Positions 42,501-63,399 of a DNA stretch of 64,000 nt are shown here, one piece after another. The stretch comes from an uncultured Actinomycetes bacterium (GTDB lineage Bacteria; Actinomycetota; Actinomycetes; Nanopelagicales; Nanopelagicaceae), in the NCBI GenBank assembly GCA_903895995.1, contig CAITVX010000020.1, positions 62,001-126,000 of the forward strand, given 5' to 3'. A program made the position numbers and the translations under genes. Position 1 is the first letter of the stretch. Every line of letters begins with the position of its first letter. The notes under the pieces were generated by a model. The model saw nothing but the letters and a program-made list of their open reading frames with translations. It ran no database searches and was not told the DNA's origin.

Positions 42501-42573
42501 CTCACCCCCAGTCAGGCACGATTCTCTTTAAAGTTGCTGGTTTAGCTCTCCCCTGCCAAAATTGGCCCACGTT

Positions 42574-42691
42574 GTTCCGGGGTCGGTGTAATTCCGAACC
42601 GGCAGTTAAAGTCTGCGACCCGTTCACATCCAGTGACCGGTGGATTTGGTGAAATTCCAGAACCGACGGTTAAAGTCCGGATGAGAGGAAC
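42574..42691 (+). ncRNA. FMN riboswitch (RFN element)
   Basis: The conserved FMN aptamer is visible: closing stem GTTCC (42574-42578) with GGAAC (42687-42691), the segment GGGGTCGGTGTAATTCCGAA, then AACCGGCAGTTAAAGTCTGC, a variable arm, GGTGAAATTCCAGAACCGAC, and GGTTAAAGTCCGGATGAGAG. The closing stem can be extended outwards with CACGT (42568-42572) to ACGTG (42692-42696). It precedes a RibM-type riboflavin transporter gene, which fits feedback by FMN. Confidence 0.96.
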
Positions 42692-42716
42692 ACGTGAAGA
42701 ACTCTCACGTGGTTTT
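42691..42716 (+). terminator. Putative riboswitch terminator hairpin
   Basis: CACGTGA (42691-42697) pairs with TCACGTG (42705-42711), followed by GTTTTCTGT. The 5' arm overlaps the last base of the aptamer stem and the possible stem extension, so the two structures compete. The T-run is short. A second perfect inverted repeat, AAATTTC/GAAATTT, follows at 42723-42739. Confidence 0.6.
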
Positions 42717-42820
42717 CTGTATAAATTTCCTAGAAATTTGCAGATGATCGCGGCGATTGGGCTTTGTGTGGGCACCCCGGATTAAGCGGATTACTAATCG
42801 CTAATAAGGGGGAACAACTT

Positions 42821-43483
42821 ATGTCAGTACTTCACTGGCTCTTTAATGCACAACTCCATTTTGGATCGAAGGCGATCTATTGGAAAGAGATCATCGGCAA
42901 TGTCTTTGGTCTAGCAAGCGCCGTCTTTGGAATGCGTCGGAAGATGTGGACATGGCCCGTTGGAATAATCGGCAATGTACTTCTCTTCACGCTATTCATT
43001 GGTGGGCTCACCGATCCGAATCAGCAGACAAAGGTCATGCTCGGCCAAGCTGGTCGACAAGTCCTCTTCGTTCTGGTCAGCCTTTACGGATGGCAGAAGT
43101 GGGTTCGTAATCGCGGTGAAGGCAATAAGCCAGTCCAGATTCGCTGGACCACAACGAAAGAGAAGCTTGTGATCATTCCTGTCACGATTGCTTTCTATTT
43201 CGTCTCTTACTTCATCATCAAGGCCCTTGGATCATGGGCACCTCGTCCAGATACCTGGATCTTTACAGGATCAGCACTTGCAACGTATGGCTTAGCTCGT
43301 GGGTATGTTGAGTTCTGGCTTGTTTGGATCGCGGTAGATGCAGTTGGAACTCCACTACTTATCAAGGGTGGTTACTACCCATCAGCTGCGCTCTACTTAA
43401 TCTATGGAGCCTTCGTTGTGTGGGGATTCTTCAACTGGCTAATCGTGGCTAAGAAGGAGAAGGCTGAGTTGGCAGCAGCCTAA
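42821..43483 (+). CDS. ribM: RibM-type riboflavin transporter (PnuC family)
   Basis: This 220-residue membrane protein of the PnuC/RibM family has about six or seven hydrophobic segments; the family block RRKMWTWPVGIIGN is near residue 40. PnuC proper carries nicotinamide riboside, but control by an FMN riboswitch marks this as the riboflavin-transporting RibM type. I chose ATG 42821, which has AAGGGGG well placed upstream and matches family N-termini; upstream in-frame codons lack a ribosome-binding site. Confidence 0.88.
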   Translation: MSVLHWLFNAQLHFGSKAIYWKEIIGNVFGLASAVFGMRRKMWTWPVGIIGNVLLFTLFIGGLTDPNQQTKVMLGQAGRQVLFVLVSLYGWQKWVRNRGEGNKPVQIRWTTTKEKLVIIPVTIAFYFVSYFIIKALGSWAPRPDTWIFTGSALATYGLARGYVEFWLVWIAVDAVGTPLLIKGGYYPSAALYLIYGAFVVWGFFNWLIVAKKEKAELAAA

Positions 43484-60245: not shown

Positions 60246-60467
60246 ATGAAGTTAGCATCTAGAACTGGCCCAAAAATTGGAGCCCTTCTCGCCGTGATCG
60301 CTTCACCAGTTTTCGCCCTTGCAGCTTTTGCCGAGGATAACGGGGCTGGCCCACGTATCGAAGAAGAGCGCCACAGCCTTGAAAGGCTACCCATTGTGAT
60401 TGTTATTAGCGCCTTGATCATTGCAGTCGGACTCGCCTATGGAATTGGGCGACGTTCCCGCAAATAA
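60246..60467 (+). CDS. Small membrane protein of unknown function
   Basis: This 73-residue product has an N-terminal hydrophobic stretch that looks like a signal peptide (ALLAVIASPVFALAAFA), a short charged loop (EERHSLERLP), a strong membrane helix (IVIVISALIIAVGLAYGIG) and the basic tail RRSRK. The clear two-hydrophobic-segment layout and the well-spaced -10 support a real gene. No family is recognised. Confidence 0.6.
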   Translation: MKLASRTGPKIGALLAVIASPVFALAAFAEDNGAGPRIEEERHSLERLPIVIVISALIIAVGLAYGIGRRSRK

Positions 60468-60523
60468 CCACCACTGCGCCCAACAAGGGTGCTAAGTTTT
60501 GCCCGCTAGCAATCTCTTAGATT

Positions 60524-60657
60524 GCAGGTGTTATTGGTTAGAGCGAAGTCCGGTGAAATCCCGGCGCTGTCCCGCAACTGTAGAAAAGTTACTCGTAACT
60601 TTTGAGCCAGGTCGCCTCTTCCATATAGCGAAGTATCCGACCTCGGAGGAAGGTCGG
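60524..60657 (+). ncRNA. Cobalamin riboswitch
   Basis: The cobalamin aptamer core is recognisable: GAAGTCCGGTGAAATCCCGG, GCGCTGTCCCGCAACTGTA, a 9-bp hairpin (AAAAGTTAC/GTAACTTTT, 60584-60603), the B12-box segment GAGCCAGGTCGCCT, and a 3' hairpin CCGACCT/AGGTCGG (60637-60657) with loop CGGAGGA. It precedes the btuF-btuC-btuD genes, fitting repression of B12 uptake when the vitamin is plentiful. Confidence 0.93.
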
Positions 60658-60705
60658 GCCTTTAAGAGCTCACCTTTGGGTAGATCTCTGAAGTCCCTAC
60701 ATTTC

Positions 60706-60732
60706 CTCCCTCAACTCTTGAGGGAGTTTTTT
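60706..60732 (+). terminator. Riboswitch intrinsic terminator that also contains the btuF ribosome-binding site
   Basis: CTCCCTCA (60706-60713) pairs perfectly with TGAGGGAG (60719-60726), followed by six T. The btuF ATG begins one base after the T-run (60734). The GGGAG in the 3' arm is also the only well-spaced Shine-Dalgarno sequence for btuF, so the hairpin can block both transcription and translation. GGAGGAA in the aptamer 3' hairpin (60645-60651) can pair with TTCCTCC (60703-60709), a likely antiterminator. Confidence 0.9.
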
Positions 60733-60733
60733 A

Positions 60734-61585
60734 ATGCGCAAGAGAAGTTCTGTAGTTCTCATAACTATCACCGCGATTGGTGCAGCGCTCACCCCATCCA
60801 TATCTCACGCTGCCACAACTTCGCCAAGACGGATCATCTCCCTTTCACCGAGTGCGACTGAAGATCTCTTCGCCATTGGTGCAGGTAAGCAAGTAGTAGC
60901 CGTCGACAGCCTCTCTAATTATCCAGCCAATGCCCCTATAACCAAGCTCGATGCTTTTACTCCGAATGTAGAAGCTATTGCAAAATACAAGCCAGATTTG
61001 GTGGTCCTGCAAAGTTCAGCAACGAAAGCCGTAGCAGTTAAAGCAGCACTAGAAAAAATGAAGATCAAAGTCTTCTTCGAAATAACCCCTTCCGATATCA
61101 GCGGTGCCTATACCGAAATTCAAGCTCTCGGAACTGCCACTGGAAAGGGAGCTCAAGCAACGAAGGTGATCACCGCAATGAAGAGTGCAATCGCTAAAGC
61201 GATAGCTTCTGGGAAACGATCGAATCCGACAGCAATTTTTCACGAGGTAGATAGCACTCTCTATTCAGCGACATCTAAGACATTTATTGGACATGTCTAC
61301 TCAGATTTCAACACTCTTAACATCGCAGATGCTGCCGATACAGCCGACTCCTTTGGTTATCCTCAATTGACTAACGAGTATCTCTTAAAGGCCAATCCTC
61401 GGGTGATCTTTATCGGCGATGAGCAAACGAGCGCGCAGGTCGCCTCTCGTGCAGGATGGAGCAGAATCGAAGCTGTCGCAAAAGAGCAGATCTTCGCTCT
61501 GCCTGCAGATATCCCATCCAGATGGGGTCCACGCCTCGTCGATTTCTATCAGTTCGTCGCCAAGTGTTTGACGTCAATTAAGTAG
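60734..61585 (+). CDS. btuF: ABC transporter substrate-binding protein for cobalamin
   Basis: The 283-residue BtuF/FecB-like protein has a signal peptide (about residues 1-26, ending SHAA) and the two-lobed fold with PRRIISLSPSATEDLFAIGAGKQVVAV at its start. It has no lipobox cysteine, unusual for a Gram-positive binding protein. The riboswitch and neighbours assign cobalamin as the substrate. The gene is followed by btuC and btuD. Confidence 0.88.
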   Translation: MRKRSSVVLITITAIGAALTPSISHAATTSPRRIISLSPSATEDLFAIGAGKQVVAVDSLSNYPANAPITKLDAFTPNVEAIAKYKPDLVVLQSSATKAVAVKAALEKMKIKVFFEITPSDISGAYTEIQALGTATGKGAQATKVITAMKSAIAKAIASGKRSNPTAIFHEVDSTLYSATSKTFIGHVYSDFNTLNIADAADTADSFGYPQLTNEYLLKANPRVIFIGDEQTSAQVASRAGWSRIEAVAKEQIFALPADIPSRWGPRLVDFYQFVAKCLTSIK

Positions 61586-61594: not shown

Positions 61595-62632
61595 ATGAAA
61601 GGCGAGAAGCGAGAGAGCAGCGCGCGGATCCAGGGGATCTCTCCGATTTGGAATTGGAGAACGACCTTTATCTGCGCTGCGCTCTTACTTCTAGTTGGAT
61701 TATTGGCAATAAGTTTTGGTCCAATTCATCTGCGCTTTGGAGAGATCATCAAAACCCTGCTTGGTATGGATGGCGGCCTATCTGGTCAAGATAGAACTGT
61801 TCTCATCGATCTTCGTTTGCCGCGGGCACTTCTCGCAGCTCTCGTCGGAGCTGCACTTGCTACAAGTGGCGCGGTCTATCAGAGTGTCTTTAGAAATCCT
61901 CTCGCCGATCCTTATCTCTTAGGTGCTGCAAGTGGCGCAGGACTTGGAGCAACAATTGCCATCACCAATGCTCACGGTGATGTCTACAGTCTGCTGCCAA
62001 TCTTCTCCTTCATCGGAGGAACTTTGGCAGTTCTTACCTCCTTCTTCATCTCGGGAAAATTCTTTGCAGAGCCACAATCACTCCTCTTGAGTGGAATTGC
62101 TGTGGGATCTTTTGCAACGGCGATTCAGACATATCTGCAGCAACGGCATAGTTCATCACTTCGGCCTGTTTACTCCTGGATTTTGGGTGAACTCACAGTT
62201 GCCAATTGGCAGATCGTTACATGGTCCTCGATTTATATTCTGATCTCACTGGGAGTTCTGATCTCCATCTCAAAACAGCTAGATGGACTCATGCTCAGCG
62301 ATGAAGAATCTTTCTCGCTAGGTATCAACCCAAACCGTTTACGCATGATCGCAGTTGCTGCCGCAACCCTTGCAACTGCAACCGCTGTCTCAGCCTCTGG
62401 CCTCATTGGTTTTGTTGGAATCGTCGTTCCGCATCTAGTTCGCGGCATAACTCATCGTGTTACCAATAGAAATCTCCTCACCGTCGCGCTAGCTGGCGCC
62501 GCATTCTTAGTACTTGCAGATCTTGGAGCAAGGACACTTCTCTCCCCTGCCGAACTTCCTATCGGTGTGATTACCGCCTTTGTTGGTGCCCCATTCTTCC
62601 TAGTAGTCCTGCGTCGAAGGAGAACCCTCTGA
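61595..62632 (+). CDS. btuC: ABC transporter permease for cobalamin (FecCD family)
   Basis: The 345-residue FecCD-type permease has about ten membrane segments, the blocks RLPRALLAALVGAALATSGAVYQSVFRNPLADPYLLGAASGAGLGA and GLIGFVGIVVPHLVRGITH with the coupling region for the ATPase. It overlaps btuD by one base. Confidence 0.93.
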   Translation: MKGEKRESSARIQGISPIWNWRTTFICAALLLLVGLLAISFGPIHLRFGEIIKTLLGMDGGLSGQDRTVLIDLRLPRALLAALVGAALATSGAVYQSVFRNPLADPYLLGAASGAGLGATIAITNAHGDVYSLLPIFSFIGGTLAVLTSFFISGKFFAEPQSLLLSGIAVGSFATAIQTYLQQRHSSSLRPVYSWILGELTVANWQIVTWSSIYILISLGVLISISKQLDGLMLSDEESFSLGINPNRLRMIAVAAATLATATAVSASGLIGFVGIVVPHLVRGITHRVTNRNLLTVALAGAAFLVLADLGARTLLSPAELPIGVITAFVGAPFFLVVLRRRRTL

Positions 62633-63399
62633 TGATGATTAGCGTTCGAAATCTAGATCTCACGATCAACGGAAAAACGATCCTGAATGATATTTCTCTC
62701 GATATCCAACCAGGTCTCTGGAGTTGTTTGGTTGGGCCAAATGGGGCTGGAAAAACTACATTCCTCAAAGTGCTCCTTGGTAGCGCTCGTTACTCAGGAA
62801 GCGTGAAGAGTGATGGTGTTGAAGTATTTAGAAACCATAAACGCAATGTTGCATTCGTTCCTCAACAACCACAAATCCCACAAGGAATCTCGGTGAGTGA
62901 GTATGTTGCCCTCGGTCGATCAAAGCGAGATGGCTGGGGCAATGAAAGTTCGCAGAGTAGAGAATTTATTGCCAAGGTCTTAGAACAGACCAATCTTTAT
63001 GGAATGCAACGACAACAGATCTCTCAATTATCAGGCGGTGAGATGCAGCGAACTCTTATTGCACGAGCACTTGCACAAGAGCCCGATCTGATTCTCTTAG
63101 ATGAGCCAACAAGCGCTCTCGATCTACACCATCAGATTGAAGTGCTCAATAATCTGCAATTTCTTCAGAAGCAGGGTGTAACAATCATCTCAACCATGCA
63201 TGACATCACTCTGGCTGCGATGTATGCAGATCGCATCATCGTCATGCAAGAGGGTCGCGTACTTGCAGATGGGGCTTCCAGCGAGATTATTCACTCACCT
63301 GAATTGCGAACTGCCTTTGATAACCGCATCAATGTTTACACATTGGACTCTGGTCGCCCTGTTGTTATTGCACGCAAAGATGAGAAGGATGAGAGATAG
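62632..63399 (+). CDS. btuD: ABC transporter ATP-binding protein for cobalamin
   Basis: The 255-residue ATPase has Walker A GPNGAGKTT, the signature LSGGEMQRTLIARALA, Walker B LILLDEPTSALD and the switch histidine in STMHD. It energises the BtuC permease. The start is ATG at 62632 or the next ATG one codon on. It is convergent with gcvT, 2 bp apart, with no terminator between. Confidence 0.92.
   Translation: MMISVRNLDLTINGKTILNDISLDIQPGLWSCLVGPNGAGKTTFLKVLLGSARYSGSVKSDGVEVFRNHKRNVAFVPQQPQIPQGISVSEYVALGRSKRDGWGNESSQSREFIAKVLEQTNLYGMQRQQISQLSGGEMQRTLIARALAQEPDLILLDEPTSALDLHHQIEVLNNLQFLQKQGVTIISTMHDITLAAMYADRIIVMQEGRVLADGASSEIIHSPELRTAFDNRINVYTLDSGRPVVIARKDEKDER

Follow-up and report, generated by a model that had tools for sequence, protein, structure and literature searches.

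The leader of btuF in an uncultured actinobacterium carries a cobalamin riboswitch followed by a hairpin that ends almost at the start codon. This arrangement raises the question of whether one RNA element can stop transcription and also close the ribosome binding site of transcripts that escape termination. The window referred to below is the whole stretch of DNA that was analysed, 64,000 nucleotides in length, and all features are given in its coordinates on the forward (+) strand. We interpret the locus as an OFF-type AdoCbl riboswitch with a dual expression platform for B12 uptake through btuFCD, a reading to which we assign a probability of roughly three in four (0.77).

Anatomy of the btuF leader

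An AdoCbl (cobalamin) riboswitch aptamer matching RF01482 occupies positions 60522-60666, directly 5' of btuF-btuC-btuD. The match spans the full length of the model and scores above the gathering threshold (cmscan 51.2 versus 50 bits, E 1.8e-6); scores in relatives reach 71.9 bits. It is the only RF01482 match in the 1.36-Mb genome. The B12 box (AGCCAGGTCGCC, 60605-60616) aligns within the match. From complementarity only, the L5 bases CCG (60572-60574) are predicted to form a kissing loop with CGG (60644-60646) in loop L13. This CGG is invariant among the 58 leaders of the alignment described below, and the same CCG/CGG pairing between L5 and L13 has been demonstrated by mutation in the metE corrinoid riboswitch of Priestia (Bacillus) megaterium (PMC10653944).

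The genes downstream of the aptamer are related to B12. The first, btuF (60734-61585), probably encodes a periplasmic B12-binding protein of 283 aa (PF01497, E 4.9e-29) and matches the vitamin B12 model BtuF NF002894 with a score under the curated cut-off. It is followed by btuC (61595-62632), a FecCD-family permease (PF01032, E 2.8e-86) whose best NCBIfam model is BtuC, also under the curated cut-off, and by btuD (62632-63399), an ABC ATPase (PF00005, E 7.3e-30). Such a combination of binding protein, permease and ATPase is consistent with BtuFCD, and the protein families together with the riboswitch suggest B12 as the transporter substrate. Just upstream of the riboswitch, a 73-aa ORF (60246-60467) with one probable membrane segment overlaps the 5' end of a divergent aldo/keto reductase ORF. 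Short sequences resembling this ORF may adjoin the riboswitch in two relatives (G008 and G030).

The P13 hairpin (60637-60657) pairs CCGACC (60637-60642) with GGTCGG (60652-60657) and closes loop L13 (60643-60651; TCGGAGGAA, or UCGGAGGAA in RNA letters). A 45-nt spacer follows P13, and then UUCCUCC, the last four bases of which (60706-60709) begin a hairpin with a 9-bp stem and a predicted stability of -12.7 kcal/mol (60706-60726; CTCCCTCAA-CTC-TTGAGGGAG, in RNA letters CUCCCUCAA-CUC-UUGAGGGAG). With its U6 tail (60727-60732), this hairpin has the shape of an intrinsic terminator. The shape is conserved in relatives, and the hairpin was recovered independently by a terminator scan.

A preliminary description of this DNA had placed the Shine-Dalgarno (SD) sequence in the 3' arm of the terminator and the end of the T-run one base before the start codon. 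Both statements are correct. The SD AGGGAG (60721-60726) lies wholly within the 3' arm (60718-60726), and a single A (60733) separates T6 from the ATG (60734). The U-tract doubles as the spacer between SD and ATG, a distance of 7 nt.

Pairing of L13 with the terminator arm

The segment GGAGGAA (60645-60651) in L13 is, as had been noted before, base for base the complement of TTCCTCC (60703-60709). Taken by itself, the window leader is weak evidence for pairing between the two because a 7-nt match to the loop arises in 764 of 5000 dinucleotide shuffles of this leader (15%). From a single sequence, chance complementarity would be a possible explanation; comparative and energetic evidence rules it out.

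A search of 100 related genomes with RF01482 gave matches in 77 of them, and 80 btuF loci were retrieved by protein from named contigs. Combined, these sources comprise 65 distinct btuF leaders from about 65 related species, all with a common layout in which P13, spacer, pyrimidine arm, SD-bearing hairpin, U-tract and start codon follow one another. The SD stands 5-9 nt from the start codon, mostly 6-7. Within the genome set, the nearest relatives of the window share its genus and family. The relatives, which carry the labels actinobacterium, Candidatus Planktophila or Candidatus Nanopelagicales, are environmental genome assemblies; some taxonomic labels, such as 'Bifidobacterium breve', are clearly unreliable. 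Judging from these record labels, the host is probably a streamlined, small-genome freshwater actinobacterium.

Fifty-eight of the 65 leaders make up the alignment used for comparative analysis. P13 is paired in 100% of its cells and the terminator in 99.4%; one pair of P13 and four pairs of the terminator have changed on both sides, five in total. For the helix that joins L13 to the terminator 5' arm, the paired share of cells is 98.7%. Its seven core pairs are kept without mismatch, and no aligned leader lacks the complementarity. When the antiterminator partner is slid by 1-3 columns, the paired share of the whole structure falls from 95% to 56-72%. Columns 111-114 (60702-60705), which are not part of the terminator stem and are required by neither the SD nor the terminator, retain their match to L13 across relatives.

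The pairing also appears to have been kept through compensatory changes near the lineage of the window. Column pair 13/114 is found as G-C, G.U and A-U, and pair 15/112 as A-U, G.U and G-C. A tree of BtuF proteins places the window in a six-member clade amid A-U and G.U relatives. Within this clade, pair 13/114 is G.U in L021 and L045, A-U in L007, L044 and L054, and G-C in the window; pair 15/112 is A-U, G.U or G-C, and all combinations are paired. These changes support the L13-arm helix but fall short of proof because independent events are few, the kissing loop and the SD also constraining both strands. That the match exceeds chance is made convincing by its conservation across relatives together with the full antiterminator helix.

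This helix is considerably longer than the seven core pairs and spans 60645-60709. The loop and the 3' strand of P13 together form the antiterminator strand, and the core is extended by pairs 60652/60702, 60653-60654/60699-60700 and 60656-60658/60695-60697, with additional inner pairs. The preliminary description had envisaged a direct switch in which L13 pairs with the terminator arm. That switch has comparative and energetic support, though in the form of a long helix and not of a 7-bp contact.

The competing structures were compared energetically in 65 leaders with the core fixed (L125 and L127 were left out), using a model that includes no kissing loop, tertiary contacts or ligand. In the nascent RNA, defined as a transcript ending before the 3' arm of the terminator, the antiterminator of the window reaches -30.9 kcal/mol versus -22.8 kcal/mol for P13. 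The antiterminator beats P13 in 65 of 65 leaders, by 6.9-11.0 kcal/mol and with a mean difference of -9.6 kcal/mol. It loses in controls whose spacers are shuffled while L13 and the arm are kept (mean +1.9 kcal/mol). Not one of 20 spacer shuffles attains the real value in 64 of the leaders, and at most one of 20 does so in the remaining leader. Once the leader is complete, the antiterminator and the P13-plus-terminator states differ by -1.7 to +2.1 kcal/mol across the 65 leaders, so that the predicted gap between the two is no more than about 2 kcal/mol. Predicted accessibility of the SD is 0.00 in the state with P13 and terminator and 0.34 in the antiterminator state, where the SD would remain partly paired.

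The ligand binding, kissing loop, termination and order of events that we infer would be as follows. In the absence of B12, the L13 loop and the second (3') strand of P13 would join the terminator 5' arm, along with the bases that directly precede this arm, in a long helix. This antiterminator would win before the 3' arm is made, blocking the terminator and freeing the SD in the 3' arm, and btuF would be transcribed and translated. In the presence of B12, the L5-L13 kissing loop would form, stabilizing P13 and withdrawing the L13 bases G60645 and G60646 from the antiterminator. Because P13 is held and L13 is barred from the antiterminator, the terminator hairpin could then form. Transcription would stop within the U-tract, beside the start codon, and the hairpin would mask the SD of any read-through RNA. 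A terminator with B12 and an antiterminator without it would give OFF genetic logic, as expected for an uptake operon.

A broader interpretation, which we advance tentatively and at somewhat less than even odds, is that these leaders constitute a lineage-wide bistable switch tuned by evolution. The same L13 bases would serve either a ligand-dependent kissing loop or the antiterminator, both states would lie within about 2 kcal/mol in some 65 species, and the few kcal/mol contributed by the kissing loop would decide termination and translation at one hairpin. If true, the leaders would amount to a set of natural replicates for the study of how transcription and translation are controlled together in Actinobacteria.

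Control of transcription, translation or both

The comparative and energetic evidence argues for the earlier proposal that a single hairpin would serve both termination and SD masking. The alternative that survives best is a switch acting on translation only. In such a switch the SD is hidden by the hairpin in the B12-bound state, the U-run is a mere spacer and any loss of mRNA is secondary, caused by Rho or by decay, as proposed for Mycobacterium tuberculosis metE. Typical B12 expression platforms have been described as translational, and intrinsic terminators as rare in mycobacteria (PMC11260477). Such terminators are likewise sparse in the genome studied here, and two lineages, L122/G026 and L121/G041, retain the SD hairpin while their U-tract is gone. 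Against this, in 58 of 58 aligned leaders the base of the hairpin is followed by at least five T residues. The pattern GGAGTTTTTN{0,3}ATG (GGAG-T5-ATG) has a single occurrence in the 1.36-Mb genome, at btuF, and the U-run is therefore not a usual spacer in this genome. Moreover, leaders L125 and L127, which sit on a long branch and have a different hairpin (CCTCCGC...GCGGAGG-T6/7-ATG, with CGGAGG in L13), again carry a T6-T7 tract before the ATG.

The frequency of hairpins with tails, estimated on 417 kb of the genome, bears on the same point. Among stems of at least 7 bp, 14 sites have a T tail versus 3 with an A tail, and among stems of at least 8 bp the numbers are 10 and 2. In a looser hairpin scan, T tails did not clearly outnumber A tails. 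Intrinsic terminators exist in this genome, though they are sparse, and intrinsic termination probably works in the lineage since strong hairpins with T tails outnumber those with A tails. We consider control of translation only to be unlikely. Within the dual platform that we favour, termination may be the lesser part because the two lineages without a U-tract keep the SD hairpin. Translational control seems to be common to all the leaders and transcriptional control to nearly all, the U-tract being present in every aligned leader yet lost in these two lineages.

Within the window, hairpins with stems of at least 7 bp and T tails occur only at btuF and at an FMN riboswitch (42569-42719), in both cases directly after the riboswitch. 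The FMN riboswitch lies upstream of a transporter ORF that is PnuC-like by resemblance, with a frame from 42764 to 43483 and a likely start near 42821. The hairpin at this site, CACGTG-AAGAACTCT-CACGTG with GTTTTCTGT, shares sequence with helix P1 of the FMN aptamer, on the 3' strand of that helix.

Far less probable is a terminator switch that acts on transcription only, the overlap with the SD being a by-product of a compact leader with no added effect. Intergenic leaders are short, and a hairpin with a U-tract fits a standard terminator. This explanation sits poorly with an SD-bearing arm that is among the most constant parts of the leader, and with two lineages that dispense with the U-tract when no riboswitch leader of the btuF type has lost the SD-masking hairpin. 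Read-through RNA would, in addition, carry an SD masked by simple base pairing. Scarcely credible, finally, is the idea that L13 is merely purine-rich like the SD (GGAGG), so that any anti-SD arm would match it unselected: the 15% of single-leader shuffles with a 7-nt match speak for it, but 60702-60705 match L13 across relatives from outside the terminator stem, a GCCC or TCCGA segment further 5' pairs with the second strand of P13, and in 64 of 65 leaders the antiterminator loses its lead when the spacer is shuffled.

Related systems and natural variants

Dual transcription-and-translation platforms are an established category of riboswitch (Barrick and Breaker 2007, PMC2258182), and, as the same source notes, AdoCbl riboswitches had already been predicted to use such mechanisms. 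As in the window, the RBS of these platforms belongs to the 3' half of a terminator that adjoins the ORF, and one hairpin possibly does two jobs. The category is a computational one, whereas the btuF platform has been traced through 65 leaders and its competing helix identified. The combined design is consequently less notable than the preliminary description held.

Mutations in P. megaterium metE have established antitermination based on P13 (PMC10653944); in the window the 3' side of P13 likewise pairs with the 5' side of the terminator as an antiterminator. The P. megaterium riboswitch is described as transcriptional, without a translational half (PMC10653944). The btuF leader differs in that L13 loop bases also join the antiterminator and in that the terminator carries the SD.

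The M. tuberculosis metE riboswitch (PMC11260477) is also actinobacterial, and there too the hairpin of the kissing loop overlaps an element that exposes the translation start in the absence of ligand, a logic that has been demonstrated for translation (PMC11260477). Correspondingly, L13 bases 60645-60651 of the window belong to the antiterminator, the strand that frees the SD. No intrinsic terminator was found in the M. tuberculosis leader (PMC11260477); the window, by contrast, has a hairpin with U6 at 60706-60732.

The Streptomyces coelicolor metE riboswitch, a further actinobacterial B12 riboswitch, has been reported to terminate transcription (PMC4365011). Its terminator is 155 nt away from the start codon, on the 5' side, and hence is not an SD-masking hairpin (PMC4365011). 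Because of this report, the premise that actinobacterial B12 riboswitches act on translation alone, from which the preliminary description had started, is unsafe and was too strongly put.

Dual platforms, P13-based antiterminators and expression platforms linked to L13 have all been published, and the window combines these known elements. It offers a compact, conserved example of a probable dual-control B12 riboswitch for Actinobacteria, in which the best-studied of the cases found, M. tuberculosis metE, is translational and without an intrinsic terminator. The locus further suggests that B12 uptake is under regulation in actinobacteria with small genomes, which probably live in fresh water.

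Natural variants of the leader, in which the U-tract is lost, loop and arm are changed together or the SD is different, could be used to separate the transcriptional from the translational half. In L004/L115, GGTCGG of P13 has become GGTTGG alongside a change from CCGA to CCAA upstream of the arm. In L121/G041, L13 reads GAGGG, the arm CCCTC and the SD AAAGGAG, and the three appear to have changed jointly. The leader L132, from a genome labelled Acidimicrobiia, lies upstream of a btuF-like ORF (match at 1462) and follows the same loop, arm and SD logic as the window. Its L13 reads GGAGGAG and its arm CTCCTCC, and the 3' arm GGAGGAG runs into a probable TTG start, which suggests that the design reaches beyond the family or arose again.

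Two further observations concern relatives with other arrangements. The btuF relative L094 (approximately 2400-2510) has a start in which a hairpin and T5 run into the ATG (CTCCTACTTTTTGGAG-AG-TTTTT-ATG), and a search with Rfam found no riboswitch there; this start is perhaps what remains of a leader that has lost its aptamer. The family-level relatives L031-L036 and L041 have a second kind of B12 riboswitch, whose P13 resembles CCACCCGYCGAGGTTTGCGGGG and which occurs mostly 5' of proteins with a GYRYWGYFQ motif. Some representatives of this kind (G036, G042, G050 and G055) apparently have a terminator followed by a separate hairpin at the SD, and they seem to achieve dual control with two hairpins.
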